Source: a virus
IMG/VR virus record: IMGVR_UViG_3300045777_000097
Span: 1-55,901 of that record
Direction: 5' to 3' (one strand)
DNA length: 55,901 nucleotides
Positions 5,797 to 38,201 of the stretch are shown here, one piece after another. A program made the position numbers and the translations under genes. Numbering within the stretch: position 1 is the first letter of the stretch; each line of letters begins with the position of its first letter. Below the pieces are notes generated by a model that searched no databases, was not told the origin of the DNA, and saw nothing but the letters and a program-made list of their open reading frames with translations.

Positions 5797-5820
5797 GGCC
5801 GTACCGGGTTGTTGTTGAAA

Positions 5821-7557: not shown

Positions 7558-7558
7558 A

Positions 7559-7831
7559 ATGGCGAAGACAAAAATCGGCCGTCTCGCGCTCCGGGCGGAG
7601 GGGGAATTCTGGAACGCCTATTGGGCGCCAAGCCAGACGTCGATGAAGGACGCCGTTTTTCTCGGGAGCGTCCGCCTGTCGCTGGTGCAGCGGGACGCCT
7701 ACGCGAAGACGCTGTTCATGGATGCGATGAAGGCGGCGTTCTCCGCGGTCGTCGATGAGACGCTGGGCGAGGCGCCGACGTGGAGCGCGCCCCAGACGGC
7801 GCCGGAGTCCGAGCGCGGGGGGCACGCCTGA
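7559..7831 (+). CDS. Hypothetical 90-aa protein in the RecE/RecT operon
   Basis: The start is MAKTKIGRLALRAEGEFWNA. It reads as mixed strands and helices (KDAVFLGSVRLSLVQRD, then TLFMDAMKAAFSAVVDETLG) with a polar tail. The ATG is one base after the exonuclease stop and has GGGAGG upstream; its stop overlaps the next ATG. No family recognised. Position between exonuclease and annealase suggests an accessory recombination role, by context only. Confidence 0.6.
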   Translation: MAKTKIGRLALRAEGEFWNAYWAPSQTSMKDAVFLGSVRLSLVQRDAYAKTLFMDAMKAAFSAVVDETLGEAPTWSAPQTAPESERGGHA

Positions 7832-8076
7832 TGACCCCAGACGAGATCCTCGCGACCGTCCGCGGCCTTCCGTTCCGGCGCTTCCACAACGCCCTGCGGT
7901 CGCTGGTCAACATCGACGGATGGATGCTCGAGCAGTTGGGCGTCTCGAAGGAGACCGCGGAGCGGTTCGTGAAAGCCCCGGAACACGTCTTTGTCACCGC
8001 CGACGACGAGACCAAGGCCGCGATCTGGAAAGTGCTCGAGCGGCGGCAGCCGGACGATTTGAGGGAGAGCGTTTAA
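7831..8076 (+). CDS. Hypothetical 81-aa helical protein in the RecE/RecT operon
   Basis: The protein starts MTPDEILATVRGLPFRRFHN and is predicted all-helical, with charged surfaces (EQLGVSKETAERFVKAPEHV, DDETKAAIWKVLERR). Its ATG overlaps the previous stop (TGATG) and its TAA is followed directly by the GTG of recT, so translation is probably coupled. Function unknown. Confidence 0.6.
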   Translation: MTPDEILATVRGLPFRRFHNALRSLVNIDGWMLEQLGVSKETAERFVKAPEHVFVTADDETKAAIWKVLERRQPDDLRESV

Positions 8077-9246
8077 GTGGCGAACGAACGGCAGCAGATT
8101 CAGGTCATCGACCCGGTCCCTCTCATGGACACAGGGTCCTTCGAGCACCTTCAGCGCATCGCCTCGGCGATGGCGCGCTCGAGCCTGATCCCGGATTGCC
8201 TCCGGATGACGAAGGTGGTCGACGAGGACGGCTACCCGGTGAAGGAAAACGGGAAAGCCGTCGTCGAATTGCTGCCCTACGAGTCGATCCTCGCCAACTG
8301 CTTCCTCGTCGTCGAGCAGGCCGTCCGGTGGGGCGCGTCGCCCTTCGCCGTGGCTCAGTGCGTCAGCGTCGTCCGCGGGAAGCTCTGCTACGAGGGCAAG
8401 CTGGTCGCCGCGATCGTCGAGGCGAAGCTGGGCGTGCGCCTAACCTACACCTACGACGGGAAAAGCGGCGATCAGCGCGGGATCGTCGTCTCGGGGAAGA
8501 TCGGCGGGGAGTCTGAGGTTCGGATCGTGACCGGCACCGTCGGCGCGTGGAAGACGAACGGCAATATGTCCCCCTGGAAGAACGCTGAGAACCACGAGCG
8601 CATGCTCGCCTACCGCGGCGCGCGCGAGTGGGCCAGGCGGCATGCGCCGGGAATCATGCTGGGAGTTTACACCGACGACGAAATGTCCGACCTGCAGTCC
8701 GGCGGCCGCACGACGCAGCTTCGCGGCATCGAGCCGGTGCGCGACGCCCTCTCCGGCGAGAAGCCGAAGGCGATCGAGGCCCGGCCGGCGGTAGCCGAGA
8801 CCACGGAATCCTTGCCGGCCACGCCAGGCGAGGGAACGGAGGCTGCCGCCGCAGTCTCCGTGGGTGAGGAAGGGGATGTCCGGGAACCGTTAACCATGTC
8901 TCCGACGACATGCGCTTCGGGGAAGGTCTTGGACACCCCTTCCGACCCTGTTGCCGAGGCCGGAGAGGTCCAGCAGGACGTCTCGGCCGTCGAGGCGGAG
9001 AAGGATGGCCCCGAAGCCGAGAACGAGGCGCAGGAGCCCACGCAGCCGACCGACGACGCCTCCTACCAGCGGTGGGTGTTCTGGTGGTCCAGCAACCTCG
9101 TCCACTCGCACGAGGAAGCGTCCGCCAAATGGAAGGCCGAGCGCACGATCCGGAACAGGCTGCAAATCTCGTCCGAGACGGTCGACGCCTGCAAGGCGTT
9201 TCTCGGCAAGTCGTGGCCGGCTCCCCCGGCGAACGGGGAGGCGTGA
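8077..9246 (+). CDS. RecT-family single-strand annealing protein with acidic linker and extra C-terminal domain (389 aa)
   Basis: Residues 15-210 look like a RecT-type annealase: SFEHLQRIASAMARSSLIPD, then LANCFLVVEQAVRWGASPFA, VSVVRGKLCYEGKLVAAIVE and a C-terminal helix near MLAYRGAREWARRHAP. Residues 225-325 are a long acidic, Ala/Pro/Glu-rich linker. Residues 330-383 form a small Trp-rich domain (YQRWVFWWSSNLVHSHEEA) not part of classic RecT. With the RecE-like nuclease it would carry out recombination and repair of phage ends. Start GTG follows the upstream TAA with GAGGGAGA about 8 bases before it. Confidence 0.75.
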   Translation: MANERQQIQVIDPVPLMDTGSFEHLQRIASAMARSSLIPDCLRMTKVVDEDGYPVKENGKAVVELLPYESILANCFLVVEQAVRWGASPFAVAQCVSVVRGKLCYEGKLVAAIVEAKLGVRLTYTYDGKSGDQRGIVVSGKIGGESEVRIVTGTVGAWKTNGNMSPWKNAENHERMLAYRGAREWARRHAPGIMLGVYTDDEMSDLQSGGRTTQLRGIEPVRDALSGEKPKAIEARPAVAETTESLPATPGEGTEAAAAVSVGEEGDVREPLTMSPTTCASGKVLDTPSDPVAEAGEVQQDVSAVEAEKDGPEAENEAQEPTQPTDDASYQRWVFWWSSNLVHSHEEASAKWKAERTIRNRLQISSETVDACKAFLGKSWPAPPANGEA

Positions 9247-9247
9247 C

Positions 9248-9493
9248 GTGGAGGAACGGGAGCGGATCGCGCGGCTGATCGCCGGGGCGCTCCACGCGGG
9301 GCGTGAGAACGACATCGTCACCATCGGATCACGGCAGATCGCCCAAAGCGTCTTCGCGGTCCCGCCGAAGGAGTTTCAGGCGCCTTTGTGGAGCCTCTAC
9401 ACGACCGTCGCCGACGTCATCATCGGCGACCAGGAACGCCAGGCCGAAGCCGCCCGCGAACGATGGGCCGCGGCGTCTCCGGAAATTGACTGA
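9248..9493 (+). CDS. Hypothetical 81-aa protein downstream of recT
   Basis: From GTG the product starts (M)EERERIARLIAGALHAGREN and continues through VTIGSRQIAQSVFAVPPKEF to a charged C-terminal helix. The GTG lies one base after the recT stop. GC-rich third positions fit this frame. No family recognised; it ends the recombination operon. Confidence 0.55.
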   Translation: MEERERIARLIAGALHAGRENDIVTIGSRQIAQSVFAVPPKEFQAPLWSLYTTVADVIIGDQERQAEAARERWAAASPEID

Positions 9494-9528
9494 TTACCCT
9501 CATGCGCACGGTAGTGATAATACGTATA

Positions 9529-9558
9529 TTGCATATTTTGAATCGCGAGATATATACT
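9529..9558 (+). promoter_or_regulatory. Sigma70-like promoter upstream of the helix-turn-helix regulator
   Basis: TTGCAT (9529-9534) and TATACT (9553-9558) are separated by 18 bases in the most AT-rich stretch of this region. The -10 matches consensus at 5 of 6 positions and the -35 at 4 of 6. A palindrome ATACGTAT (9520-9527) lies just upstream. It would drive the regulator at 9606 with a leader of about 40 bases. Confidence 0.55.
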
Positions 9559-9571
9559 CTGGCTATGTACT

Positions 9572-9587
9572 CAGGCGATTGTGCCTG
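9572..9587. promoter_or_regulatory. Operator-like inverted repeat
   Basis: CAGGC-N6-GCCTG lies just downstream of the predicted promoter and about 18 bases before the regulator's start codon. Its place between the transcription start and the ATG suits an autorepression site for the helix-turn-helix protein encoded next. It could instead form a short RNA hairpin. Confidence 0.4.
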
Positions 9588-9605
9588 GGGCTAGTGAGGT
9601 AAATT

Positions 9606-9896
9606 ATGACCCCACGGGACTATGCTGCGCTGCAGCGCGCCATGCAGATGGACACCGACACATTCGCCCAATGGCTGTGCTGCGGCCCGCGGACCGCTCA
9701 TCGGTGGCTGAACGGGGATCAGGACATCCCGCGCTGGATCGAGACGTTCGGCCCATTTTTAGTCGAGGCCGCTACCGGGCAGTGGGGGCCGGGTGTGCAG
9801 AAGCGCGTGCTCCTGCTCCCGCGGCTTGGCTTGCAACCCCTCCTGCCGCAGCAGCTTCGGCAGGCCACGGCCGACGCGACATCGGAGTCCCTCTAG
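9606..9896 (+). CDS. Helix-turn-helix transcription regulator (96 aa)
   Basis: The N-terminus MTPRDYAALQRAMQMDTDTF followed by AQWLCCGPRTAHRWLNGDQD has the look of a Cro/XRE-like helix-turn-helix, with the turn near Cys25-Gly27 and a recognition helix ARG/THR-rich at 28-36, and IPRWI after it. The rest is a Leu/Gln-rich tail. GTGAGG sits 7 bases before the ATG. It has its own promoter and a dyad just upstream. Its TAG shares a CTAG with the stop of the convergent lysis gene. It probably regulates early or late expression; a lysogeny role is not shown. Confidence 0.65.
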   Translation: MTPRDYAALQRAMQMDTDTFAQWLCCGPRTAHRWLNGDQDIPRWIETFGPFLVEAATGQWGPGVQKRVLLLPRLGLQPLLPQQLRQATADATSESL

Positions 9897-10207
9897 TGTG
9901 GCGCCTTTGGCGCCATGCCTTGAAGGGCGCGCTTAACCTCGGCGAGGTCACTGGCTTGGACCTGTTCCTGTCCGGATATGGTTCCGAGGTTTCGTGCGAT
10001 TTCGGTCATTGATCGGCGGATGTCCGAAATATCGGACGCCATCGTCTGTGTCACCTCGTGCTCATGCACCATGTCGTGCTGCAAGCCGGTGACGTCTCGG
10101 AGCGTCGTGACCTGACCGGCTGAAAACCACCCGACCACGGCGACTACACCCGCCCCGGCGACGTATTTCAGCACCTCGATAGCGTGGTCGGCGGGGTGGA
10201 CGGACAT
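9893..10207 (-). CDS. Membrane-anchored coiled-coil protein, spanin- or holin-accessory-like (104 aa)
   Basis: One hydrophobic segment (about 12-30, VLKYVAGAGVVAVVGWFSAG) is followed by a long heptad-like region (residues 35-98, DISDIRRSMTEIARNLGTI to SDLAEVKRAL). This resembles phage XhlA-type or inner-membrane spanin-type proteins. GGGAAG precedes the ATG. It lies downstream of the amidase, in the lysis region. Assignment rests on architecture and place; no sequence signature proves it. Confidence 0.55.
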   Translation of the reverse strand: MSVHPADHAIEVLKYVAGAGVVAVVGWFSAGQVTTLRDVTGLQHDMVHEHEVTQTMASDISDIRRSMTEIARNLGTISGQEQVQASDLAEVKRALQGMAPKAPH

Positions 10208-10272
10208 CTGTTCTTCCCTAGAATCAGATCCACGCCGCCTCCGCCGTTCTATGTCGAACAGGTCGTCACGGT

Positions 10273-10413
10273 CTACCGGGATCGGCCGCCCACGAACCGG
10301 GCGATGGCCGCGAGCAGCTTCCGGGCGACATCGCGGAGGGTGACGGCGGCGGCCACGACCGCAACGATGATCGCCGCCATGGTGACGAGAATGACGATGA
10401 GACCTGTTTCCAC
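10273..10413 (-). CDS. Membrane microprotein in the lysis region (46 aa)
   Basis: From GTG it reads (M)ETGLIVILVTMAAIIVAVVA, a single strong transmembrane helix (5-27), followed by a basic amphipathic helix (RDVARKLLAAIARFVGG). GGAGG lies exactly 7 bases before the GTG. The start is 3 bases after the amidase stop. It could be a small holin, antiholin or spanin component; the sequence alone does not decide. Confidence 0.55.
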   Translation of the reverse strand: METGLIVILVTMAAIIVAVVAAAVTLRDVARKLLAAIARFVGGRSR

Positions 10414-10416
10414 GGG

Positions 10417-11130
10417 TCAGCCTCCGGAAAGTTCTTTTTCGATGGCCGCGACGGTGAGTGGCCCGGCATCCCCGTCCACGTCGAGTTTTTCCTTGGCCTG
10501 GAATGCTTTGACGGGGTTGGGGAAGCCGAGCTTTTCCAGGGCGTCCAGAACGCCCTCGAGCGTCGTCAGGAGCGGCGCGGTCGGCTCTGCGGCGCCGGCC
10601 AGGTAGGATCCGGGCGGCGGGTAGTGGCCGGCGTCCGCTTCGGCTTTCACGCGCGCGATGAAGCCGGTGATCCACGCCGGGTTCGTCGATGGGTCGGAGT
10701 GGCCGCCGCCGTCTTTCCCGAGGCCGAAATGAGTCTCGAGGCCCTTGCCCGCCCCGCCCGGGGCACGCTGGATCGGGATGTTGTAGGTTTTGCAGAGATA
10801 GGCCGCCAGGCGGGCGGTGGTCAGCAACAGGGCGTCGCTGTAGCCGTTCTTGCTGTAGCCCGCCATCTCGATCCCGATGGTGCGAGAGTTGAACGCGCAG
10901 GCGTGCCAGGCCTTGTCGGAAACGCGGACGCACTGGTCGATCTTGCCGCCGTCCTCGCGGATGACGAAATGCGCCGAGACCTGCGACTGCTTTTCCTTGA
11001 ACCATTCGTCGGACGCATCGAAGTCGCCTTCGCAGTCGTGGATGACGATGCCGTCGATGTCGGCAGTGCGGGCGGAATAATTCGGCGACGGCGTCCACGA
11101 CAGGGGGGGGAGCCATTCGGCATTTGCCAT
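10417..11130 (-). CDS. Endolysin: N-acetylmuramoyl-L-alanine amidase with peptidoglycan-binding tail (237 aa)
   Basis: Residues 15-165 are an Amidase_2 (T7 lysozyme/PGRP) fold. The first zinc His is His31 in GIVIHDCEG, FNSRTIGIEMAGY is the central strand, and GGGHSDPSTNPAW supplies the last His (144) with Asp146. Residues 185-237 look like a peptidoglycan-binding domain (KAFQAKEKLDVDGDAGPLTV). It cleaves the MurNAc-L-Ala bond at host lysis. No signal peptide is seen, so release would depend on a holin among the neighbouring membrane proteins. Confidence 0.9.
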   Translation of the reverse strand: MANAEWLPPLSWTPSPNYSARTADIDGIVIHDCEGDFDASDEWFKEKQSQVSAHFVIREDGGKIDQCVRVSDKAWHACAFNSRTIGIEMAGYSKNGYSDALLLTTARLAAYLCKTYNIPIQRAPGGAGKGLETHFGLGKDGGGHSDPSTNPAWITGFIARVKAEADAGHYPPPGSYLAGAAEPTAPLLTTLEGVLDALEKLGFPNPVKAFQAKEKLDVDGDAGPLTVAAIEKELSGG

Positions 11131-24411: not shown

Positions 24412-27165
24412 TCACGATCCGTAGTCGCGGCCCCGGAACGGTCCGTCGGAGAACTCCGGAAAGCGATCCGGCCACATCTCTCCCGGGCGCCACCAGAACC
24501 GCTGATGCTTCCCGCGCATGAGATTGTTCTCTTGCGTCCGGAACTGCCGGGCGCCGTCCGGGTCGAGGCTCTTTTGAAGCTGGTCGAGGATCATCCGGTT
24601 GTAGGCCGCCCGGAGATACCAGAGCGTCGAGAACACCGGCGAGGAATAGCGCAGCGTGTTGATGCCGAATTCGCTCACCCGCGACTGCCATGATTTCCTG
24701 CTCGGATGGTTTTTGGGGAGCGCCCAATTCCCGAGGAGGTGCCCCATCTCTCCGGCCGCGTTCATGGCGTCGCCGACCACCGGGCCGAAGAACATTTCGC
24801 CTCCGGACCGGACGTTGTCGGTCATCGACCCGAGGATGAAGTCGCCGAGCCACGGGATCGCGCCGAGCGCGGCGCCGTGGAACCACGTCATGCGCCCTTC
24901 CGGCGTCCTGAAATCCAACGGCGGAATATCCTTCCCGGCCGAGACCTGCTTGAGGCAATAGGCCACCGTCGCCATGAGGACCATCCCGGCGGCCAGCCCG
25001 ATCGCCCACGTTGCCGCGCGCAGCTTGTTCCGGGACCACTCGTGCTGAAAGGCGAGCACCTGCGACACGATCAGCGACGCCTGGAACGAATGGAACATGC
25101 CGGCCGATCGCACGAACTGGCCGAGCACGGTGTTCGGGGTCGACCCGCCCAGCATGGCGGCCTTCCCTCGCAGGGACATCGTCGGGACCGCCTCCTCGCG
25201 CTCCCCGGCCATGTAGGCGAGGAACCGGGTGGCGAGGTCGTCGGCCTTCTTCCGGGCGTCCTCGCGGCCCTTGTCCGATTCGGCGTAGGGCTCTCCGTTG
25301 GGGCCGAATAGCTCCTTCTGGCCCATCAGGCGAAGAACGTCCGCCGGGCGCTGGTCGCCAACCGCGGCGATCTCCTCCGGGCGCAGCCACTTCGCCGACC
25401 CGGTCGCCGGCTCGTGAAGGTCGGCCATCTGAATGACCTGCCAGTCCGACGGGGTGAGGCCGTATCCCTTCATCTTGCTCCGGATCCGCTCCGGGAGGTC
25501 GTACCAGTCCTTCTCCTGCTCCCGTGCCAGCTTCGCGGACAGGTCGCGCATGAAGGTGTCGCGGAGCGATTGGAGCGTCGGGGAGAGGCCGGAGAGGTGG
25601 GTCGTCCTGTCCGGCAACCAGCGCGACCAGCGCGCGACGTGGCGCAGCCTGTTCAGTTGCCGGGCGCCTTCGCCGAGGGTGAACGCCGCCTGGTCGAGAT
25701 TGAACCCGGCGTGCAGGATCTCATCCTTCGACTGCTTCCCGAACGACGCGACCATGTGCGGGACCATCTCCATGATTTCCAGAGGGCGCATGCCGGTGAG
25801 GTAGCGGGCGCTGGCCTGGATCACCGGGTTCACGGAGATGTGGACGAGTTGCGCCGCGCCGAGGAGCGCGCTGTAGGAGATGTTCCGCAACACCGTCCCG
25901 GAAAGCGCGAGGCCGTTCTCGTCGCCGCGGTCGCCCATGAACTGCTGCAGATAGCCGTCGAGCGTCCGTGTCGCCTCCGCCACCTTCGCGGCCGCCATGA
26001 GATGAGGGACGCCCTTGAGCAGACTCCGTTTACTGTCGATCGTCCGCAGGTCGCCCTCGTGCTCGATGAACTGCTTGATGAACTCGACCATGGCGACCGG
26101 GTTCGGCCCCAGCACGCGCATCAGGGCGATGTCGTTCGCCATCGAGGTCCCGTAGTGCAGAAAGTCGGACAGGATGTCGTCGCCGTAGCGGCCGAACTCC
26201 CGGGCGTAGCGCCCCTGAGAATCGGCGTCCTTGAAGACGAAGAAACGGTGGTCCGATCGGGAATTCGCCACCATCGACCCGCCACGTTTCGCCATCGAGG
26301 CGCGATCTGACAGCCGGCCGCCTGTGACGATATTCTTCCATGCCTCCCCGAGGATTCGCATCTTCTCTTCTGCGGAGGGGATGCTGGCGCCGAAAAGTTC
26401 GCCCGTCCAAGGGTCGCGCATCTTCGACCAGTCGAGCATCGGGTTGATGAAGTTCGACCAGTAGAGCCTCGATCGTTCCGGGCTCCACGCCTCTCCGTTG
26501 GCCGCCTTCGTCCCCCCGGCGATCTGCACCGCGTGCGGGTCGTGCGACTGCGGGTTGTGCCAGGTCTCGAGCTTCGGGATCGTGTCGCCGGCGTGGTCGT
26601 TGAAAAGCTGACGCAGCCCGTCCGCCCCTTCGCGGAGTTGCGCGGCGAACGCCTGCATCTCGGGGCTCGTCGATTCGCCGTGGAGCGCCCGGCGGAGGTC
26701 GCCGAACTGCGCGACGTTCTTGCGCCCCCCGGTCAGGCTTCCATCGGAGACGAAGGTCTTGCGCCGCCAGTTCTGCAGCGCATCGGCGATCTTGGCGAAA
26801 TAGCGCCCCTCGATCGCCTCCTTGATCGACCGGACGTTGATCCCCCCCTCGTACCCGTGCCCCTCCAAAAACCCGTAGGCGGCGTCGATCGGGTTCGGCA
26901 TGCCGTGGCGATCGGTGAATTTGGTGAGCCGGTCGACCACCTCGTCCCGCTTCTGCACGGTGAGCATCCGTTGCCGGCGCACCCGCTTCCCGATCGCGTC
27001 GAAGTCCTTCATGGTCGCGGCGCGCGCGGCGGCCCGCTGCCAACCCCGCATCAGGTAGTCCTTGTGCCGGCCGAGAATCCAGTCGGCGTCATTCTGGGAG
27101 ATCGCCGGGCGGCCTTGGGCGTCGCGCTGCTGCGTGAGGGCGCGGATGCAGGATTCGAAGCTCAA
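24412..27165 (-). CDS. Large internal virion or ejection-type protein (917 aa)
   Basis: The protein is mostly alpha-helical, with a Lys/Arg/Glu-rich body and one strong hydrophobic stretch near residue 730-755 (ATWAIGLAAGMVLMATVAYC). The hydrophobic ends HGAALGAIPWLGDFILG also look membrane-active. This fits podovirus internal proteins that form the ejection channel, and the gene follows the giant polyvalent gene and the core proteins. TTG at 27165 is chosen because it overlaps the upstream stop (TTGA) and has AGGGGAG about 8 bases before it; GTG at 27174 abuts the Shine-Dalgarno. No enzymatic motif found. Confidence 0.6.
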   Translation of the reverse strand: MSFESCIRALTQQRDAQGRPAISQNDADWILGRHKDYLMRGWQRAAARAATMKDFDAIGKRVRRQRMLTVQKRDEVVDRLTKFTDRHGMPNPIDAAYGFLEGHGYEGGINVRSIKEAIEGRYFAKIADALQNWRRKTFVSDGSLTGGRKNVAQFGDLRRALHGESTSPEMQAFAAQLREGADGLRQLFNDHAGDTIPKLETWHNPQSHDPHAVQIAGGTKAANGEAWSPERSRLYWSNFINPMLDWSKMRDPWTGELFGASIPSAEEKMRILGEAWKNIVTGGRLSDRASMAKRGGSMVANSRSDHRFFVFKDADSQGRYAREFGRYGDDILSDFLHYGTSMANDIALMRVLGPNPVAMVEFIKQFIEHEGDLRTIDSKRSLLKGVPHLMAAAKVAEATRTLDGYLQQFMGDRGDENGLALSGTVLRNISYSALLGAAQLVHISVNPVIQASARYLTGMRPLEIMEMVPHMVASFGKQSKDEILHAGFNLDQAAFTLGEGARQLNRLRHVARWSRWLPDRTTHLSGLSPTLQSLRDTFMRDLSAKLAREQEKDWYDLPERIRSKMKGYGLTPSDWQVIQMADLHEPATGSAKWLRPEEIAAVGDQRPADVLRLMGQKELFGPNGEPYAESDKGREDARKKADDLATRFLAYMAGEREEAVPTMSLRGKAAMLGGSTPNTVLGQFVRSAGMFHSFQASLIVSQVLAFQHEWSRNKLRAATWAIGLAAGMVLMATVAYCLKQVSAGKDIPPLDFRTPEGRMTWFHGAALGAIPWLGDFILGSMTDNVRSGGEMFFGPVVGDAMNAAGEMGHLLGNWALPKNHPSRKSWQSRVSEFGINTLRYSSPVFSTLWYLRAAYNRMILDQLQKSLDPDGARQFRTQENNLMRGKHQRFWWRPGEMWPDRFPEFSDGPFRGRDYGS

Positions 27166-30100
27166 TCTTCGCACTCCCCTATGATCTTTGCGAGAATAGA
27201 CTCGTGCGGCACGGAATTGACCAGCGTGTCCCTGTCGACGATGTTCCCCTCGCCATCCGGGACCATCCGCAGGAGCGGATTGCCCCCGGCCTCGGCGGGT
27301 TTGGCTGCCGAGGCCGCAGGCGCGGGCGGCGCTGGGCGCAGGGACTCCGCGACGTCCTGATCGCTCCGGGTGTGGAAGACGGCCCCGACCTGCCGCAGGG
27401 CGTCGATCAGATCAGTCGCCGTTTGCGCGCCCACCGTCGCCTTCATCTTCTGGCCGGATAGCTGCCAATTGTCATAGACGCCCCGGACGACGCCATCGGC
27501 GTAATATTTCCGGCCCTCTCTTCGCAGCGCCTCGAAGGCGTAGCGCGGTCCGCTTTTCTTGACCATCAACGCGCCGTCGACCGACCAGACCTCCGCATCC
27601 GGGACAGCGTCGAGGAACTTGATGAGGTGGTCCCCGTCCACGAAGTTGACCGCGCGCTCCTTCATGAACTCCTTGGCGTCGAACATCCGCCCCAGAAGGA
27701 TCGCCGGGCGCGTCTGGCCGCCCTCCATCGTGTGCGTGACGATCTGCCCGGCAAGCTGCTCGTAGCCCGCCAGCAGGTTCCCCGTGACCATGTAGCGGTC
27801 TTCGCGCCCGTCCTTGTTCGCCGCCTCGAACATCGGCCCCAGATCGTCCGCGCGCAGATTCGGGTTGCTCGCGATCGTGACGCTGTCCTCGCGCTCTTTG
27901 CCGCCGGCAATGATGAGGCGCGAAAGCGGGATGGAGAGGGACCGGGAACTGTTCGGCAGCGCGAAAAGCGCGTTCCACGCCGACAACGCGACCGGGTTCT
28001 TGACCTTGGCGTCCCGGGTGAGGCCGATCACGACCGCCGGCATGTCCTCGCCTTTGACGGTGAGCGTGACCGTCGCGCCCGGCCGGGCGACGTCGGACAG
28101 GGTCTCGAGCGAGGCGAAGGCATCCTCGAGCTTCGCCCGCGCCCGGGTCTTGGCGTCCGGATCCTTGGTCGCGGCGACGACCTGCCGGATGTGTTCCTGC
28201 GCCTCTGTCCGCACGCGGGCGATCATCGCGGCCTGCTTCTTGCCCCCGCTCTTTTCGAGCGCGCGGAGCTCCATCGCGAACGGCCGCTTCGTCGGCGTCT
28301 CGCCAAGGTGATCCGCGATCGCCGTCGTGACCTCGTCCGGGCGCATGGCGCGGCCCTGCGCCTTGACCGACACCTTTTCCAGATTGACCGGCCCCTGGAA
28401 CGGGGAGGGCCCGGTCGCCGGCTTGATCTCCGTCGAGTCGATCGTGCGCGCCTGGAGGTCGAGCGACTTCGCCTCGAGGTCGTTCGTCCCGGCGGCGTCC
28501 ATGGCCTCGATGACCGCCTTGTAGGCCGCCGTGATCCGGTCGATGAACTCCTGCTGCTGCTCCGGGTGGAGCAGCGTGAGGCGCCCGGTCGCCTTTGCGG
28601 CCAGGCCAGCGATGTTGTCCTCGATGCCGGGCTCGCCGAGCAGCGTCCAGAGGTCCGGGTCGTCCCGCAGGATCGCCGCAACGGCGCGATCGCCGTATCT
28701 GTTCAGGAAGTCGACCGCGTCGGCGGTGAACTTGCCCTTTGCGGCGCCGGTCGTGTTGGCGTTCAGCGACGCCATCTTTCGCATCAGGATCGCGGTCGGG
28801 CGCGTCTCCGCCGGGATCTCCGCCGCGAGGTGCGTGTAGCGCGGGAGCGTGACCTGCCCGGTGCGGTTGATGCGCCCGAGCATCTGCATGTGGGTATTGA
28901 TGTCCGGGTCGGCCTCCCCAATAATCATGCGCCTTGGGCGCCGATCCTTGAACTTGATCGAGGGGTGCATCGAGAGGCCGGTCGACATCGACTTGTTGCC
29001 GAGCACGGCATCCAGCCTCCCGTCGTTGAACATCTTGACCGTCTGCTTCTTGCCGGCGCTGCCAGTCTCGGACGATGGGCGCCGCACCAAAAAGGTCCCG
29101 CGCCCGGCGTTGTGCTGCGCCATCATGTCCTCGAGGGACGCGCCCCGAAGCGCCGGTTCGTCGGTCTGGTCGGGCGCGTACATCTGCCAGTCTCGCCGGT
29201 TCTCGCCATGGACAAGGGCCGTCGGGAACGGGTGGCTCTCATGCACCGGCGCGGCGACCGAGTAGCCCTGCCGCTCGAGGTCGTCGACCGTCTCCCTCGG
29301 CCGGGAATAGTCGACCATCGCCGATCGCCCGGTGATCTCGCGGATGGAATACCCGGCCTTCTCGATGACGTTCCGGATGGTGTCGAGCGGCGAGACCGGC
29401 AGGTCGCCGAGGTCGATGCTGTCGAGCAGGTCCTCGGCGGCGTGGTACATGTCGAGCGCATGCGCCGACATCATGTGCAGCGGGATCATGACGCGGATCT
29501 TTTCGTCGTCGCCAGATTTGATCGTCACGCGCCGGGTGCGCTCGAGATAGCGTTTCAGGATGTCGACGAAGCCGATGTTGATTTCGTCCCCGATCTTGAT
29601 GCCCTCGTTGTCGGCAAAATCCTTGATGAAGGCGTCGTTGGTTTTCGACAAGGCGATGACCGGCTTCTCCCCGGCCAGAAGCGCCTCGACCGCGCGCTCG
29701 CCGGTCTTCTGCGCTTTCAGCGCCATCACCATCTGGCTGATGATGTTGTGCATGACAGAGGCGAACGAAGTGGCGTCAACCGACGCCTCGCCGACGCCTC
29801 CGTCATGCGTCGTTCCGCCGCCCATCTCCGCGGCGAGCTCCTGGGCGATCTCGAGGCGCTCCTCCTCGAATTCGCGATCGAACTGGAAGATCGAGCGCAG
29901 CCCGTCGGAGAACTCGGAGTAGGCTTGCTCGCTGACGGGGATGCCCTCGTAGTCGTAGTTGATGCCCTCGAAAGACCGCTCCCGGCGCATGTACTGCCCG
30001 GCGTCCGCGAGCATGGACGCCACGATCTGTTGCAGCGGGACTCCGCCCTTGCCGATGAGGTCGGGCAGCTTGGAGACGTCGTCGACCGCCTTCAGCATGT

Positions 30101-33100
30101 CCGTCCGGCTGTAGAGCGTCATCACGTTCGGCGATTTGGCATAAGTCGCGCTCGAATACATGACGGCGCGCGCGGCCCCGACGACCTCCCGAAAGACCTC
30201 AGACCGCGGCGGCGCCTTCTCGTCGTCCTCCCACCCGGCTGATGGATTCGCGGCCCCGCCGGCGTTGTGCGCCTCGTCCATGATGAGGAACGAGCGCGGC
30301 GCGACCTGGCGCAGGAAGTTCCGACGCGGCGTCTCGTTCCCCTTCACGCTGTTCATCTGGTCGTAGGTCGTGAAGACGACATCCGGGGTCGCTGACCCGG
30401 ACAAGATCCCCGACATGACCTCTCCGGCCTTGTTGGAGCTCTGCGACGCCGAGAACGACCCGCGCCGGGGCGGCTCCGGCTGTCCATTCTCCCGCGCGTC
30501 GTCGCGATCGGTCAACCAGTCCAGCGCCTCGTCGTCGAGCGGGATGCGGGTGCCGGAATTCGTCATCGCCATGTTGATCGGGCGGCCGAGTTGCTCATGC
30601 CAGCCGATGTCGTGCAGATCGCGCCACATGTCGCCGTAGAGGTCCGGCTTCTCGGTGACGAAGACCGGGATCATGCCGTGCGTCTTGGCGTAGGAGATCA
30701 TCGCCGCGACGACCCTCCCCTTCCCTAAGCCGGTTTGGTCGCCGATGATGAAGCCTTCGCCGCGCTCGATATTCGAGATGCCGAGACCGATCGCATCGAC
30801 CTGCTCGCCCGAGAAATACTTGCCGAGGTCCGCGACGTTTCGCCCCAGCGCCCGGGCGACATAGGCGTCGATGCTCCCATGCTCCTCCTGCAGCCGGTCG
30901 AGTGAGTTGTAGGTCGCCTCGCGCAGGTTGGCGGGCAGGAGGGTGTTGAGCTTGACGCCTTGGGTCGACGCCGGCTCGTAGGGCGTCTGGCCTTCGACCG
31001 AAGTTCCTACCGATCCCCTTCGCTCGGAATGAGGCGCAGGATTAGCTCCTCGAACGTTGCCGCCTTGCTGAGGTCCGCCCCCTGCTCCCGGAGCCATGGC
31101 AGGCTTTCCGACGCCATTTCCGGGTTGTCCGTGATCGCCTGCTCCACCCACTTGGCCGGGTTCGCCCGGTCCAGTTCCCCCCAACGGTTCAACAGGCGCG
31201 CCTCCGACAGGCGCTTCTCCGCCCACTCCATCGCCGCCTTCGGGTCGTTGCTCTGTTTCAGGAGGAGAAGCGCCTGTTTCGCTATCGGTTCCAACTGCTC
31301 CTGTGACGTCTTCGGTCGGTACGCCATTGAGTTTTCCTCCTACTTCCTCCCAGGTCTTCAGGAGCGGCGGGGGTGTCTTGGTGAGCGGGTCGCGCTCGGA
31401 CTTGCCCCGGCCTTCGATGACGATGACGTCGACCGGCCAGCCGGCGCCCTGTTTCTGGTAGAGGTCGCCGGCCACCGTGAAGATGTCCGAGACCTTGTAA
31501 TTGTTCAACAACTGATAATAGAACCGGCGCTTGGCCTTCGCCATGTAGCCGGCCGCGCGCTCCGCCGGGTCATCGGCCTTGACGCCGCCGACGATCAGCA
31601 CGGCGCGCCCGCCCGACTTCATGGTCTTCAGCGCGTTCAGCGCGATCGCGTGGTCGACCTGATCCGTCCGGAACCCGTCGACTGACCAAATCCGCTTCTC
31701 GCCGCCTTCCTTCACCGTGCCGAACGGCGGGTTGGCGATGACGGCATCCATCTGCCCGGCGCGATCGGCGAACAGGGACTCCGAGGTCGCGTCGGTCGTG
31801 GTCGGGTGGAAGCCTTGCGCCTCGAGCGCCGCGGCGCGCGTCGGGTTGAGCTCGTTCGTGACGGCGTGCTGCGGGTTGGCCTCGATCAGGAGCATACCGT
31901 TCCCGGCCGTCGGCTCGAGGACGCGGGTGTCCGGGCCGATGCCGGCCAGGCGGGACGCGACATATGCGAGCGGGACAGGGGTCGAATAGGCCTGCTCGGC
32001 GATGCTGGTCGATGTCCGGGTGGAGAGGTTGGGCTGGCCCTCGTAGACCTTGAGGAGCTTCCCGAAGGTCTCCGCCGGCGCGGCGCCTGCGGTGCGATCG
32101 GTCTCCACGATGTCCCGGGCGTGCTCGACCACGGCGCGCTCGACGAGCTCGTCGACGAGCTTGTTCGCCGACGTGCCTTCCGGGATCTCGAGGCCGAGTC
32201 CCTTGGCGATCTGGCGCGCTTCGACGATGGACTTGAACGGCTGCTCGCCGCTCGCGAGGCGGGCCTTGATGGCGGCGACGAAGGCGTCGCGGGCGGATTC
32301 CTGTCCGACGGCCGGGGTCTTGGGGAAGGCGTCGGCAACTGCCGCTTCTGCCGCCTGCTCAAGCGTCCAGCCGCCATTTTCAGGAGGTGTGACGTTAACA
32401 CCGGGGCTCTCTCCGTCTGGATAACCAAGCCACCTCCGCAAATCGACACTGAGCTTTGGATTGTCGACGGCGGCCTGGGGGTCGAACGCTACCGAGTGGC
32501 CCCCGCCGCGGTGCTCAAGAACCGTGTACCTTCCGGCCCCCCCGGGTGCCGGAATCATGGCAAACCCGGCCTCCTCCATCGCTTTCAAAAAGGCTTTGGT
32601 CTTGAACTTGTTGGCGAAGGCTGTTTCCGCCTTCGATACCTCGGGCTTCGGCGCCTCGATCGCCGGGCGCTCGACGGAGGTCGGCGGGGCCTTGGGCGCT
32701 TCCTCGGCGAGGATCCGGGCGAACTCGGCGTCGACCTTGTCCGGCCGATCCATGCCGGCGACGTCCAGCCCGCCGTCTTCCATGATGTCGCGAGCGCCGT
32801 TGTACATGCCGCGCAGATAGGGCCGCAGCTCCGCGACACTGGAGTCGAGGTCGCGCACGATCGCCTTCACGAACTTGGCGAAGGTCCGGGCGCCGGCTTC
32901 GATGTGGAAGCCGGCCATCTCCATGCCGATCTGCAAAAGCTCCGGGTCGAAGCCGGCCGACATGGTCGCGGCGGCGTCCTTGAGCTTTTGTTTGAAGCGC
33001 GCCTTCAGTTGCTCGTAGCGGTCCTTCTTGAAGAAGGCGTTGTCGGCCCCGTAGTCGGATCCAAAGCCCTCGCCGGGCTGCTCCTGCGCTCCGGGTTCCT

Positions 33101-36100
33101 CTGCGCCGGCCTCCGCCTTTGTCCCATTTCCCTGCGGCTCTTGAGGCTCGTTAGGCGCGCCGGGCGGCGGAGCGGGCGGAGCGGTCTCCTCGGGGCGACC
33201 CACCCAATTTTCCCCGTCCCAAATCTGGGTGGATTCGACGCCGCGGCGCGCAATGTCACCTTTCCACTGCGCAAGAAGCTTTTCCGGCTCCATGGTGTTG
33301 CTGATTTGGGCCGCCAAGTCCGGCAGCGTCGGCAGGCTGAGATAGCGATAGTCCTCTTCGGACAGGCCGTTCACCCAACGGATTGCCTCATTCATCGCCT
33401 TGACGATGGGGTGCTTTCCAACTTCGTCCTCAAGCGGGAATGGCCGCTGTCTTCCGGGCGCTGGCGTCTCGACCTTGGCCGGCGGCAGGCCCGCGAGCGG
33501 CGGGGCCGGTTCGCCGAAGGCCGCCCGGGTCGCGGCCTCGATCGCTTCGTCCACCGTCAAGATGTCGCCGCCGACCGGGAAATAGCGAGGGGAACCGTCT
33601 GGACGGCGCGATACCTCACCGTGGCGCCCATCCGCAGACCCGCTGATGAGATACCAGTTCCCGTCCGGCCCCTTGACGCCGGGGCGCGTGTTCAGGCTGT
33701 CTCGAAGTTGCGCGGCGAAATGGTCCCGCGTGCCTTCCTTCGGTTCACCGGCGAGCTTCGGCACCTGATAGAACCCAGCCATCCCTTCCGGCGTCACGAC
33801 AATCTGCGGTGTTCCGTAGACGGGCGCGCCTTTGTCGATCTTCCAGCCGTAGACCGTCAGGACTGATCGCGCCGGTTTCCCGGTATCCTGCGCCACGGCC
33901 CAGGTGACGAGCGCGGCGCCGTTCGGATCCACTCCGTCCCCCCGGCGCTTCGGCTTCAGGCCGCGCGCGGCGAGGTCGGCGAAATGGTGGAGTTCGAGCC
34001 CCTTGTCGGTGAGATCGGGGAGGCCGGGCGGGAGTGCGGCGCTTTCCGGGGACAGAACCCGCACGAAATGCCGAAGGTGGTTGAGCGGCGACGGTGCGAG
34101 GCCTTGCACCCCTTCCTCAAGCACAACGGGCGCGCTGTTCGGTGAACCCTGCGGGACGGTGCGAAAGGTTTCCCGCCGCTCATAACGGTTCTCGACTTTC
34201 TCCCACGTCGAGACTTGCCCCTTATCCGGGTCGAAAGCGACGTGCCAGCCTTCCGGGAGGTTCCGAATCGCGTCCGCCGTGGCCTTGTCGACCGTGACCT
34301 CCGCCCGCGCGGCGAGACGATCCGCTTCCGCCTTTACGGCCTCTTCTTGGTCCAGCCGATCGAACTCTGCCTTGATGGCCGGTTCTAGGTCTTCCGGAAC
34401 CTTTCCTGTGAGATTGTAGCGGTGGACGCCACGCGCTCGGAGGGCTTTCGCCAAGGCAGCGATGTCGACTGCGGGATTCTCCGCCGGCGCGGGCGTCAGC
34501 AGCCCCGGCATGTCCGGGGGCAGGCCGCCGCCGAACAGGCCATCCTCCGGCAGCGGCGCGGCGCCGCCCTTCAGAGGCTTCCCGGCCGCGGTCTCCGCCT
34601 TCTCCTTGTCCGTGACCGGCTTCATGCCGGGGAGAAGGGTCTGGCCCCCGGCCTCAGTGTGCTCAGTGACGGGCGCGGGGGTCTCAGTAGCCTCCGTCGG
34701 CGCGGCGGCCTGCGGCGGGAAAAGCTCGTCGATGACCGGCTCTGCGGCCTTGATGAGGCCCGACGCGATCTGGTCGGCCGGCGTGCCGCTCGCGTCGAGG
34801 GCACCCGTGACCTGCTCGACGAGACCGTGCGCAGCTTCGGCGACCGGGTGGGGCGCCGACTGAGGCTCGACAGGGGCGGCGGCCTGCGCCGTGGCGGCGG
34901 CTTCCGCCTCCTCCTTCGCCTTCCGGCGCGCCTCCGCGGCCTCGAGCTCCGCCGTCTGCTGCGCCTGGCCCTGCGGCGTCCCGGTGTCGATGTCGGTCCG
35001 GGGGGCGGGGACGATCGGCGGCGCGCCGTCGAGTTTGAGTCCTTCCTCCCGGATCAGCCGCTCGATGTCCTCGAGGAACAACCGTGCGGCGGCCATGGGC
35101 TCCATGCCGTCGGCGACGTTCCCGGCCGCCTTGTTCAGCGCGGCCGAGACCGGCCCGTGCCGGGTGGCGAGCTTTTCGAGGATCAGGCCGAGTCGTTCCG
35201 CGCGATCCGCGATCGCGGCGTTCGAGCCTGCAAGCACGTTCCCGGCCGCCTCGATCCGGCTCTGCTCGTTGTCGAGCATCCGGAAGATGCGCTTGTTGTC
35301 GCGCAGGAGCGCCATCACCCGCGAGAAGACCTGTGCGCGCTCGCCGGCGAGGGTCCGCGTCGCCGAGTGCGAGCCGAACATGTCCTCGAAGGTGTCTTCC
35401 TTGAACCCGGCGGCGTTCGCATCGGCCACGATCATCCGGGCGGCGTTCTCGTCGGACGGCTTGAACTTGACCATGTCCGCCATCACGGCGGCCTGCTTCG
35501 TCTTGTCGGCCACGCCGAGACCGACGATGGCGGCGAAGTTCGGCTTCACCTGGCCGTTGAGCACCATCCGCCATGCTTCGTCCGAAAGCTCGGCGAGGCC
35601 CTTGCCTTGCTTCAGTTTGGGATCGGAGACCGGCAGGCTCTTGTCCCAGATTTCCGGGTGGTCACGGAGGATTCGCGCGACGTCGATCACGTCGGCGCCC
35701 GGGCCGCCCTCCTGCAGGTTCTTCTTGGCGGCGCGCGCGCGGGCGTCTTCGACCGTCCAGCCGTCGGCCTCCCGCAGCCGGTCGCCCATGACGCGCGTGC
35801 CGGGCGGAAGCTGGCCTTGCGCATGGAGGTCTTTGGCGAGGCCCGTGCGCTGGTGCCCGTCGGCGACGTACAGGCTTCCGTCGTGGCGCTCATGGACGAC
35901 GATCTTGCCCGTCGCCATCGGATCCCACGCCGCGCCCTTGAGCCGACTCGTGACGCCGTTCTCGTCTCCGCCGCCCTTGTACTGGTAGGCGACAGCGTCG
36001 GTTTTGAGTGCGAGCGGGTCGAAGGTCTCGTTGACGTGGACCGGGCGCCCGGTGACGGAATCCGTCTGCACGCTCCCGCCAGCCCCGCCGCCGCTCTGCC

Positions 36101-38201
36101 TTTCGCCCGGCCGAATGTCGGAGATCGTCTCCGGGAGAACGTCTCGGGAGAAGCCGAGATGGTCATAGACCACGGCGGAGCCGCGGCTGTCCCACCCGCT
36201 GATCTCGCCGGTGTGCGTCCTGCCGCCGGCGTCCTGCCCGGTGACGACGTCGCCCGGGCGCAAGGCGCGGATGGCGCCCTGCTTGTCTTCCGGAAGGCCC
36301 GCCGTCGCCATCGCGGCGTCGCGCGCGTCGGCGTACTTCTGGAAGTCGCTGGCGCGCTGCTCGTAATCGCGGGCCTCCTCGGGCGACAGGTTCCCCGCTG
36401 AGATCGCCTGTCGGAGGAAGGAAATCCGGTTCTGGATTGCGTCGGCGTGCGGCCCGTCATAGCCGCTCGTCCGGGTGACGGCGCCGCCCGATGGCGCGTT
36501 GTCGGGCTGGATCGGAGAGGGGGGCGCATCCGGCGTGTGGACCGGCGGCAGGGGCGGCGCGATCTCGTCCGGGTTCTGCCCGTGGCGGACGTGGCCCTCG
36601 TAATTCGTCAGCACGTCACCCGGGGCGTGATCCGGATGGACCGGCGGCGCGGCCGCGGCGTCGAGCTCTGCGGAATGGACGCCGGACGGAGTGACGGTGG
36701 TCGGTGCGGGCGGAGTCTCTCCCCCGACCTTGCCCGGCGCCGGGAGCGCCAGCATCCCGCCCCCGCCCCCGCCCGCAGGCGGCGTCCATTGGTCGGTCTT
36801 GTTGTCGTAGGTCCACCCGGCGTCGCTCTTGCGGATGAACTCGTCGATCTCATCCCGCCAATTTCGTTGCTGCTCCGTCTTCGGCCATCCGCCGGGCGGC
36901 GGCGTCTCCCCGGCGCGCTTTACGAACTCGCCCACCGGCGTCAGGCCGTGCCAGGCCATCCAGCCCTCGCCGATCCCGTGGATGACGCCCGCCGGGATCC
37001 CGCCCATAAGGAATGACCCCACCTCGTCGTAGAGCACCGGCAAGAACCCGGTCGGTTGCCCGAGCTCTCGGCGGCGCTCCTCGCGACCGGGCTCCTGCAC
37101 GCCCGTCAATCCGGCTTGGATCGCGCCCTGCTTGACGGCCTGTTCTGCGATGCGCCCGATCGCGGATCGCGCCGTCGCCGCGCCGCCGCCGCCGACCATG
37201 AGGCCGATTCGGTTGATCGGATCGCTGATCGTCGAGCCCCAGATTTCGCCCGCCGTCGCCGCGAGCCACGGCAGGAAGTAGCCGCCAGACTTGGCGTATT
37301 CCGCCTGATATTTGTCGCTTTGCGACTTGATGTAGGCGTCGGCGTAATCGTTCGCGTTGAGCCCAGCGTGGACCGCGGCGAGGAGCGCGGGATTGTCCGG
37401 GTTCGCGGCTGCGATCTCGTTGAGATGATTCTGGTAGAGGCGGAACTGTTCCTGCATGAGCGGGCTACCGAACGTCCCGACCGTCGACAGGCTTGAGTTC
37501 ATGAGGTTGGGGATCGCGCCGCCAACCTTGTCGATCGCCAGCGTGAACGGGTCGTAGCCGAGGTTCTTGGCCGCCTCGTCGCGGTAGCCCCCGAGGAACG
37601 GATTCGGGATCACCTCACCCTTGAGCGCCTTCACCTGGGAGATCGTGTCCGCGATCGAACTGGCGAGCGCGTTCTGCCGGTCGCCGCCGTCCGTGCCCCA
37701 GGCGCCCATCTCCGAGTGGTGCCAGAAGTTCTCCCATAGGTTCATCGGCGGCTGCGCCGGCGCGGGAGGCGCGGCGGGAGGCGAGAACTTCGCTTCCGGG
37801 ACATCTGACGGCGGCGGGGGCGCGTTCCCGGTCCACTGTTCGATCTCAGGCGCGGCGGCGCCGGCCGCCGACTGCTGCGCCGCCTCGGGCGTGGCGCGCA
37901 GAGCCTGTCCGACCCCGGCGGCGTCCTTCGCCAGGCCCTGCGCTGCGTTGGCGGCGCCCTCTGCGATGGCCGGGGCAGCGGATGCGCCCGCCTCGCCGAC
38001 GCTGCGCATGGGGTCCGCGCTGATCGTGGCGGTGGAGAGCGGATCGGTCTTGGTGAACCGAGACCACATCGACTCGGTGTCGGTCGGGCCGCTGTAGAAG
38101 GGCTCGCCCCGGGCCGACTTGGTATAGGAATCATCTGCGTCAATTGGCGCGGCCCCGCCCGCGCCGCCAGCCCCATCGAATCCGGGATCTCGGTCGGCCA
38201 T
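27162..38201 (-). CDS. Giant polyvalent virion protein, DarB-like: ParB-like, adenine methylase and strawberry-notch helicase (3679 aa)
   Basis: Residues 1-420 hold Pro/Ala linkers and hydrophobic helices (GGYFLPWLAATAGEIWG). Near 765-785, YVADGHQRTGLAKDL is a ParB/Srx-like motif. Charged linkers and associated helical domains follow (about 1700-1800, FFKKDRYEQLKARFK). Near 2090-2160 lie methylase motifs LEPTAGNGML and ANPPFG. Near 2440-3130 is an SNO-type helicase: GDQTGLGKGR, IMDEAHN, MLGRINRTGQ. This layout matches polyvalent proteins such as phage P1 DarB, injected with DNA to counter restriction. Position among internal virion genes fits. A separate gene overlaps the linker at 2292-2398, and an in-frame ATG at 31097 could start the helicase half independently. 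Confidence 0.85.
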   Translation of the reverse strand: MADRDPGFDGAGGAGGAAPIDADDSYTKSARGEPFYSGPTDTESMWSRFTKTDPLSTATISADPMRSVGEAGASAAPAIAEGAANAAQGLAKDAAGVGQALRATPEAAQQSAAGAAAPEIEQWTGNAPPPPSDVPEAKFSPPAAPPAPAQPPMNLWENFWHHSEMGAWGTDGGDRQNALASSIADTISQVKALKGEVIPNPFLGGYRDEAAKNLGYDPFTLAIDKVGGAIPNLMNSSLSTVGTFGSPLMQEQFRLYQNHLNEIAAANPDNPALLAAVHAGLNANDYADAYIKSQSDKYQAEYAKSGGYFLPWLAATAGEIWGSTISDPINRIGLMVGGGGAATARSAIGRIAEQAVKQGAIQAGLTGVQEPGREERRRELGQPTGFLPVLYDEVGSFLMGGIPAGVIHGIGEGWMAWHGLTPVGEFVKRAGETPPPGGWPKTEQQRNWRDEIDEFIRKSDAGWTYDNKTDQWTPPAGGGGGGMLALPAPGKVGGETPPAPTTVTPSGVHSAELDAAAAPPVHPDHAPGDVLTNYEGHVRHGQNPDEIAPPLPPVHTPDAPPSPIQPDNAPSGGAVTRTSGYDGPHADAIQNRISFLRQAISAGNLSPEEARDYEQRASDFQKYADARDAAMATAGLPEDKQGAIRALRPGDVVTGQDAGGRTHTGEISGWDSRGSAVVYDHLGFSRDVLPETISDIRPGERQSGGGAGGSVQTDSVTGRPVHVNETFDPLALKTDAVAYQYKGGGDENGVTSRLKGAAWDPMATGKIVVHERHDGSLYVADGHQRTGLAKDLHAQGQLPPGTRVMGDRLREADGWTVEDARARAAKKNLQEGGPGADVIDVARILRDHPEIWDKSLPVSDPKLKQGKGLAELSDEAWRMVLNGQVKPNFAAIVGLGVADKTKQAAVMADMVKFKPSDENAARMIVADANAAGFKEDTFEDMFGSHSATRTLAGERAQVFSRVMALLRDNKRIFRMLDNEQSRIEAAGNVLAGSNAAIADRAERLGLILEKLATRHGPVSAALNKAAGNVADGMEPMAAARLFLEDIERLIREEGLKLDGAPPIVPAPRTDIDTGTPQGQAQQTAELEAAEARRKAKEEAEAAATAQAAAPVEPQSAPHPVAEAAHGLVEQVTGALDASGTPADQIASGLIKAAEPVIDELFPPQAAAPTEATETPAPVTEHTEAGGQTLLPGMKPVTDKEKAETAAGKPLKGGAAPLPEDGLFGGGLPPDMPGLLTPAPAENPAVDIAALAKALRARGVHRYNLTGKVPEDLEPAIKAEFDRLDQEEAVKAEADRLAARAEVTVDKATADAIRNLPEGWHVAFDPDKGQVSTWEKVENRYERRETFRTVPQGSPNSAPVVLEEGVQGLAPSPLNHLRHFVRVLSPESAALPPGLPDLTDKGLELHHFADLAARGLKPKRRGDGVDPNGAALVTWAVAQDTGKPARSVLTVYGWKIDKGAPVYGTPQIVVTPEGMAGFYQVPKLAGEPKEGTRDHFAAQLRDSLNTRPGVKGPDGNWYLISGSADGRHGEVSRRPDGSPRYFPVGGDILTVDEAIEAATRAAFGEPAPPLAGLPPAKVETPAPGRQRPFPLEDEVGKHPIVKAMNEAIRWVNGLSEEDYRYLSLPTLPDLAAQISNTMEPEKLLAQWKGDIARRGVESTQIWDGENWVGRPEETAPPAPPPGAPNEPQEPQGNGTKAEAGAEEPGAQEQPGEGFGSDYGADNAFFKKDRYEQLKARFKQKLKDAAATMSAGFDPELLQIGMEMAGFHIEAGARTFAKFVKAIVRDLDSSVAELRPYLRGMYNGARDIMEDGGLDVAGMDRPDKVDAEFARILAEEAPKAPPTSVERPAIEAPKPEVSKAETAFANKFKTKAFLKAMEEAGFAMIPAPGGAGRYTVLEHRGGGHSVAFDPQAAVDNPKLSVDLRRWLGYPDGESPGVNVTPPENGGWTLEQAAEAAVADAFPKTPAVGQESARDAFVAAIKARLASGEQPFKSIVEARQIAKGLGLEIPEGTSANKLVDELVERAVVEHARDIVETDRTAGAAPAETFGKLLKVYEGQPNLSTRTSTSIAEQAYSTPVPLAYVASRLAGIGPDTRVLEPTAGNGMLLIEANPQHAVTNELNPTRAAALEAQGFHPTTTDATSESLFADRAGQMDAVIANPPFGTVKEGGEKRIWSVDGFRTDQVDHAIALNALKTMKSGGRAVLIVGGVKADDPAERAAGYMAKAKRRFYYQLLNNYKVSDIFTVAGDLYQKQGAGWPVDVIVIEGRGKSERDPLTKTPPPLLKTWEEVGGKLNGVPTEDVTGAVGTDSETGASPPETEQRPEGGDGVGGEAPVGGAPVEPLGGTGPGEPGQVGGAGDHGQPGNGVGKPAMAPGAGGGPQQGGNVRGANPAPHSERRGSVGTSVEGQTPYEPASTQGVKLNTLLPANLREATYNSLDRLQEEHGSIDAYVARALGRNVADLGKYFSGEQVDAIGLGISNIERGEGFIIGDQTGLGKGRVVAAMISYAKTHGMIPVFVTEKPDLYGDMWRDLHDIGWHEQLGRPINMAMTNSGTRIPLDDEALDWLTDRDDARENGQPEPPRRGSFSASQSSNKAGEVMSGILSGSATPDVVFTTYDQMNSVKGNETPRRNFLRQVAPRSFLIMDEAHNAGGAANPSAGWEDDEKAPPRSEVFREVVGAARAVMYSSATYAKSPNVMTLYSRTDMLKAVDDVSKLPDLIGKGGVPLQQIVASMLADAGQYMRRERSFEGINYDYEGIPVSEQAYSEFSDGLRSIFQFDREFEEERLEIAQELAAEMGGGTTHDGGVGEASVDATSFASVMHNIISQMVMALKAQKTGERAVEALLAGEKPVIALSKTNDAFIKDFADNEGIKIGDEINIGFVDILKRYLERTRRVTIKSGDDEKIRVMIPLHMMSAHALDMYHAAEDLLDSIDLGDLPVSPLDTIRNVIEKAGYSIREITGRSAMVDYSRPRETVDDLERQGYSVAAPVHESHPFPTALVHGENRRDWQMYAPDQTDEPALRGASLEDMMAQHNAGRGTFLVRRPSSETGSAGKKQTVKMFNDGRLDAVLGNKSMSTGLSMHPSIKFKDRRPRRMIIGEADPDINTHMQMLGRINRTGQVTLPRYTHLAAEIPAETRPTAILMRKMASLNANTTGAAKGKFTADAVDFLNRYGDRAVAAILRDDPDLWTLLGEPGIEDNIAGLAAKATGRLTLLHPEQQQEFIDRITAAYKAVIEAMDAAGTNDLEAKSLDLQARTIDSTEIKPATGPSPFQGPVNLEKVSVKAQGRAMRPDEVTTAIADHLGETPTKRPFAMELRALEKSGGKKQAAMIARVRTEAQEHIRQVVAATKDPDAKTRARAKLEDAFASLETLSDVARPGATVTLTVKGEDMPAVVIGLTRDAKVKNPVALSAWNALFALPNSSRSLSIPLSRLIIAGGKEREDSVTIASNPNLRADDLGPMFEAANKDGREDRYMVTGNLLAGYEQLAGQIVTHTMEGGQTRPAILLGRMFDAKEFMKERAVNFVDGDHLIKFLDAVPDAEVWSVDGALMVKKSGPRYAFEALRREGRKYYADGVVRGVYDNWQLSGQKMKATVGAQTATDLIDALRQVGAVFHTRSDQDVAESLRPAPPAPAASAAKPAEAGGNPLLRMVPDGEGNIVDRDTLVNSVPHESILAKIIGECED
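31007..31327 (-). CDS. Nested overlapping gene inside the giant polyvalent gene (106 aa)
   Basis: In the +1 frame of the giant gene there is a complete reading frame starting MAYRPKTSQEQLEPIAKQAL and ending LRLIPSEGDR, all-helical and with normal composition (Lys, Glu, Asn, Trp well represented). Its ATG has AGGAGG about 8 bases upstream plus a second GGAGG just before. I counted G/C at the third position in 23 of its first 30 codons, against 11 of 30 for the giant frame over the same DNA. The giant frame here is a Gly/Pro/Glu linker. So this frame, not the linker, looks like the one under codon selection. Function unknown. Confidence 0.75.
   Translation of the reverse strand: MAYRPKTSQEQLEPIAKQALLLLKQSNDPKAAMEWAEKRLSEARLLNRWGELDRANPAKWVEQAITDNPEMASESLPWLREQGADLSKAATFEELILRLIPSEGDR

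Follow-up and report, generated by a model that had tools for sequence, protein, structure and literature searches.

The described system closest to the locus analyzed here is DarB of phage P1, that is, the polyvalent methylase-helicase dyad, a single polypeptide in which an adenine methylase precedes a helicase of the SF2 type (Iyer et al. 2017, PMC5512222). That paper also describes an N-terminal LPD36 domain for the dyad, and a term search of it returned no mention of overlapping genes. Two small proteins of P1, Ulx and DdrA, are tied to the Dar system, and Ulx, the gene of which lies right behind darB, 'aids DarB localization' (PMC9024508). P1 also has an annotated gene within another Dar gene, namely iddB inside ddrB (26577-26975 in locus L166), although it is antisense and its host gene is a different one from that described below. 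More generally, same-strand overprinted viral genes, i.e., complete open reading frames (ORFs) nested out of frame within a coding gene, have been reviewed (PMC8227390). In the open-access literature, no nested or overlapping gene was found in association with DarB or with a methylase-helicase pair, an earlier mention elsewhere being possible. Annotation pipelines largely reject out-of-frame nested genes, and to our knowledge, long genes of this kind that are conserved beyond close relatives have rarely been documented in prokaryotes.

The window, by which we mean the whole stretch of DNA that was analyzed, is a virus record of 55.9 kb (55,901 nucleotides; IMG/VR record IMGVR_UViG_3300045777_000097). 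Its minus strand carries terminase, head-tail adaptor, major head, tail and virion-structural genes, and its plus strand carries exonuclease VIII and RecT genes. Flanked by virion-protein genes is a giant polyvalent gene (27162-38201, minus strand), whose DarB-like product of 3679 amino acids contains an N6-type adenine methylase (residues about 2062-2206) and then a Strawberry-notch-type SF2 helicase (residues about 2482-3179) in one polypeptide, as in the P1 dyad. This protein matched the PHROG 'DarB-like antirestriction' entry (2.9e-36), methylase PHROGs, and the Pfam families AAA_34 (1.1e-20) and Helicase_C_4 (5.7e-12); its likeness to DarB lies in the PHROG match as well as in the virion-gene neighborhood. 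The GC content at third codon positions (GC3) of the giant frame dips to about 0.70-0.80 at codons 1201-1700 (33101-34601) and 1851-1950 (32351-32651), compared with about 0.9 elsewhere, perhaps marking domains of different origin. In addition, an antisense open frame of 871 codons (27627-30242, plus strand) lies opposite the helicase part, and is probably a by-product of high GC3.

It is in the linker between the two domains that this locus differs from P1 darB, the linker of which holds no nested ORF. Exactly at the methylase/helicase junction, and wholly within the giant ORF (38201-27162), lies a complete ORF of 106 codons (31007-31327), with its ATG at 31327 and its TAG at 31009-31007. It is on the minus strand, which the preliminary description, giving coordinates only, had not specified, and its frame is +1 to that of the giant gene, its first codon falling at giant-frame codon 2292. 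A Shine-Dalgarno (SD) sequence, AGGAGG (31336-31341, minus strand), is placed 8 nucleotides before this ATG (region ggaagtAGGAGGaaaactcaATG, spacing 8), and SD, start, frame and stop are all contained inside the other gene. It is to be noted that eight other same-strand, wrong-frame ORFs of greater length (112-296 codons) occur in the giant gene, and openness alone is therefore not unusual there. These eight, however, display the giant frame's GC signature in shifted form, and only the nested ORF combines a coding-like GC pattern with a strong SD. Its GC content at codon positions 1/2/3 is 0.65/0.43/0.84, whereas GC3 of the giant frame falls to 0.41 at codons 2301-2400, versus about 0.84-0.94 (about 0.88) on the flanks. 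The stretch of giant-frame linker that is overlapped (31008-31328, minus strand) is Gly/Pro/Glu-rich, poorly conserved and free of stop codons. The complete frame inside the 11-kb gene, the strong SD, the third-position GC contrast and the Gly/Pro/Glu-rich linker, all originally described from the window, were thus borne out.

Relatives were gathered with five sequences around the methylase-helicase junction, yielding 80 viral and 80 genome contigs, in which 156 loci, window included, possessed both methylase and helicase. By a script rule, a linker ORF of 80 codons or more, in the +1 or a rearranged frame, was found at the same place in 154 of them; the two without it were the Pleionea locus L148, which has a short linker, and the disrupted locus L103. 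One of the 154, L128, belongs there only formally, as an indel shifted its methylase frame, such that its nested-type ORF (2374-2919) is +2 to the methylase and still +1 to the helicase; it was excluded from the later tests, which comprised 153 loci. As a control, same-size windows taken from other parts of these giant genes contained a +1 ORF of that length in only 36 of 2009 cases. The nested frame begins about 20 codons past the methylase core, and its product is about 90-180 amino acids long in the relatives. The chosen start was ATG in 147 of the 153 loci, and an SD match of at least 5 bases preceded 65% of the first nested ATGs, against 6.7% of other ATGs in the same frame, an enrichment of about tenfold. 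The automatic choice misplaced a few starts, such as those of L006 and L008; in L008, the start is most likely a GTG aligned with the ATG of the window. Within the window's own clade, the relatives bore out the nested ATG, SD and open frame of the gene.

Substitutions were then compared in 25 independent pairs of loci without length change. When counted by nested codon positions 1/2/3, the difference rates were 0.177/0.138/0.287, and the same differences counted by giant-frame positions gave 0.287/0.177/0.138; in the adjoining methylase, the giant-frame positions gave 0.118/0.082/0.403. In all 25 pairs, conservation was higher for the nested protein than for the giant-frame protein encoded by the same DNA (means 0.73 vs 0.60). 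Within the window's clade (L086, L006, L007 and L008; 10 pairs), the rates at nested positions were 0.42/0.38/0.48, and the nested protein was again the better conserved in 10 of 10 pairs. Both sets document purifying selection on the nested frame, with substitutions following the nested codons rather than the giant frame alone; selection in the giant frame only, which would have spoken against the gene as first described, was not what they revealed. At the same time, the giant frame runs through the nested region without a stop or a shift in 153 of the 156 loci. When synonymous codons of the nested frame were permuted in 152 loci that had already been filtered as open, the giant frame remained open 18% of the time on average; for the window alone, this test was uninformative (P = 0.44). 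The nested substitution pattern, together with the open giant frame, indicates that both frames are in use. Judging from the aligned sequences, the nested frame is used as protein, and the giant frame in this stretch serves mainly as an open linker.

Among the 153 nested proteins, 135 formed one BLAST cluster, in which single links may chain. Profile-profile comparison of the window-type and core-type alignments gave a probability of 95% (E = 2.7e-8). About 10 of the 18 members outside the BLAST cluster scored above the best of 360 shuffled decoys with a profile that excluded them; since the profile could not separate the remaining ones, such as L004, L089 and L164, from the decoys, a single origin of all members is not proven. 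The family is indeed diverse, with a mean column identity of 24% in alignment A3. AlphaFold2 nevertheless gave confident models, namely pLDDT 94.4 and pTM 0.87 for a relative of 131 residues, and pLDDT 84.7 and pTM 0.72 for the window protein, with a similar order of helices in the two. The five helices predicted for the window protein agree with the folded, helical product that had been surmised from the sequence. The structure prediction suggested at that time returned a confident fold, while the accompanying search matched no known family or structure: comparison with Pfam, PHROG and NCBIfam gave only scattered single-member matches of no weight, the best hit of the PDB sequence search had E = 0.02, and that of the fold searches in PDB and BFVD had E = 0.9, none being significant. 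On its own, the window nested protein (P0001) retrieved no relative by an IMG/VR peptide-pattern scan or by phage tblastn, the latter giving Vibrio hits at E = 0.3 only, and relatives were reached only through the flanks in the giant gene. When plasmids and phages were searched by tblastn with cyanobacterial and phage members, the Bacteroides phage BS-TP4 was the only hit.

The carriers of the nested gene include viral contigs and genomes labelled as cyanobacteria, Bacteroidales, Vibrio, alphaproteobacteria, desulfovibrios and an archaeal metagenome-assembled genome (MAG), some of them of lower GC. The copy in BS-TP4, an isolate whose record PQ571277.1 has the nested frame at 10032-10388, is identical to one in Phocaeicola massiliensis, and others reside on plasmids of Chroococcidiopsis, Picosynechococcus and Thalassospira and in many cyanobacterial genomes. 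In a set of 292 cyanobacterial genomes, five contained the nested gene, and every match was located between a methylase and a helicase. Unlike the reviewed viral overprinted genes, this nesting persists in phages, on plasmids and in chromosomes from several bacterial phyla. The gene was absent from an Acinetobacter phage and from the sampled plasmids of Yersinia, Pseudomonas, Cupriavidus, Vogesella, Xanthomonas, Acinetobacter, Rhizobium and Blastomonas. These absences cluster on the methylase tree, requiring 4 changes, compared with 13.4 for shuffled labels. In the public annotation of the Gloeobacter morelensis plasmid pGMOR1 (L176), the nested frame is in fact called as a CDS (5722-6171; hypothetical protein WP_230844304.1), right behind which starts the annotated helicase gene (6168-10646). 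The methylase is missing from the gene table of this plasmid, even though no stop interrupts the giant frame across the methylase half, and that half may have been missed likewise in other records.

Also unlike the reviewed overprinted genes, this one was found un-nested. Two cyanobacterial loci, L139 and L132, have a single gene in which the helicase comes first and the methylase second; in this order there is no methylase-to-helicase linker, and no nested ORF was found. In both helicase-first cyanobacteria (L194 and L196), the small gene instead stands free just upstream of the helicase. In L194, it occupies 3129-3587 (152 amino acids) and ends 42 nucleotides before the helicase ATG, and its product shares up to 41% identity with nested members (best E 7e-10). 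In L196, the open frame spans 5186-5713, with the helicase frame running from 5753, and its product matched the nested profile with E values of 4e-5 to 6e-6 in a search among the frames of that locus. On the methylase tree, which has no outgroup root and for which P1 was too remote to be placed, the two helicase-first loci fall together (100/97) inside the nested-bearing clade, near L121 and L141; un-nesting hence looks derived, as far as this tree can tell. Another open frame of L196 (the FACHB-502 locus), IscB-like by eye, is situated at 3824-5164, just upstream of the free small gene.

Taken as a whole, the sequence data make it near certain that the nested gene is real, and the readings that would deny it an independent product fare poorly. 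One of these is that the frame is untranslated and arises as an artefact, either from composition at the codon positions or from a constraint on the linker at the RNA or DNA level. GC-rich genomes do yield many long chance ORFs, several of them inside the giant gene itself; however, neither composition nor nucleic-acid constraint accords with the position-specific substitutions, the conserved start and SD, the carriers of lower GC, the confident fold and the free-standing homologs, and we regard this reading as the least credible of all. Hardly more credible is programmed +1 (or -2) frameshifting, by which the nested frame would supply an alternative C-terminus to the methylase and create a short form without the helicase. 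The geometry would suit it, the nested frame being +1 to the methylase and beginning so soon after the methylase core. Nonetheless, a stop in the nested frame is found within 30 nucleotides upstream of the start in 76% of the loci, and directly before it (TGAATG or TAAATG type) in at least a quarter, which leaves little or no room for a fusion; upstream of the ATG, the nested frame was not found to be open over a useful stretch. With the conserved SD and ATG and the free-standing gene in two genomes, frameshift fusion is largely ruled out. The SD, the ATG and the stop just upstream in the nested frame make internal initiation the best reading.

A different question is whether the product has anything to do with the enzyme around it. 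It could be real yet independent, for instance an inhibitor of host defence or restriction, the linker merely tolerating a second frame. This would be in keeping with a stretch of the giant gene under little protein constraint, and with a small protein as diverse as are many arms-race genes, but we consider it unlikely, as the small gene occurs only with the methylase-helicase pair in all loci and cyanobacterial hits, and the un-nested copies still sit beside the helicase. In sequence, the linkage of the nested gene to the methylase-helicase enzyme is clear: the gene accompanies the enzyme pair in phages, on plasmids and in chromosomes, and remains by the helicase when un-nested, which suggests a partner and speaks against a capsid factor or cargo unrelated to the enzyme. 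The partner role thus draws on this strict co-occurrence, on persistence as a neighboring free gene, and on the confident fold. The small protein could serve as a subunit, a regulator or a chaperone.

The age of the two frames is a separate matter. The preliminary description had raised the possibility that the small gene came first and was overprinted by the giant linker, a methylase gene thereby being fused to a helicase gene. An older small gene between two ancestral genes, with the linker arising by read-through, would be compatible with the partner role, and would account for the genome-typical codon signature and the confident fold of the nested frame, as well as for a giant linker of low complexity in which only openness is maintained. 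An unconstrained linker, however, would acquire the codon signature of the nested frame anyway. Furthermore, P1 darB, the proteobacterial plasmids and the Acinetobacter phage are fused without a nested gene, showing that fusion does not need it, and the un-nested copies, lying inside the nested clade, look derived. We regard an older small gene, as originally proposed, as possible but somewhat doubtful.

We favor, with some confidence, the view that the small protein is a partner dedicated to the methylase-helicase enzyme and is translated from an internal start on the giant mRNA. On this model, the giant mRNA would comprise two genes: translation from the far-upstream ATG would produce the methylase-linker-helicase protein, and ribosomes that initiate anew at the linker's own SD and ATG would produce a separate helical protein of 106 amino acids in the +1 frame. 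The latter would bind the methylase-helicase enzyme as a subunit or regulator, and the sharing of one message would match the two proteins in amount and timing. In this phage, by analogy with P1 DarB, the small partner might be synthesized together with the giant protein, perhaps also being packaged and injected alongside it, and might help protect the entering DNA. Translation, enzyme binding and the DNA-protection role of the small protein are all inferred. A functional parallel with Ulx or DdrA of P1 is possible, although these are encoded by separate, non-overlapping genes. Homology of the nested family to Ulx and DdrA was considered and rejected for want of profile similarity.

The absence of the nested gene from P1 DarB, the sampled plasmids and the Acinetobacter phage implies that this type of enzyme can work without the small protein. 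Accordingly, the new component of DarB-like systems that had been anticipated stands as a conserved candidate within its clade, and not as a universal one. What emerges is a nested gene conserved over phages and several bacterial phyla, the product of which has a confident fold so far unmatched, and for which the two un-nested copies provide a natural control. It offers a testable missing component for a widespread class of anti-restriction proteins. Quite conceivably, although we advance it tentatively, this unannotated family is an obligatory small subunit of DNA-protection machines, in which one mRNA would encode both subunits in overlapping frames. Giant polyvalent genes can, by this example, hide further genes.
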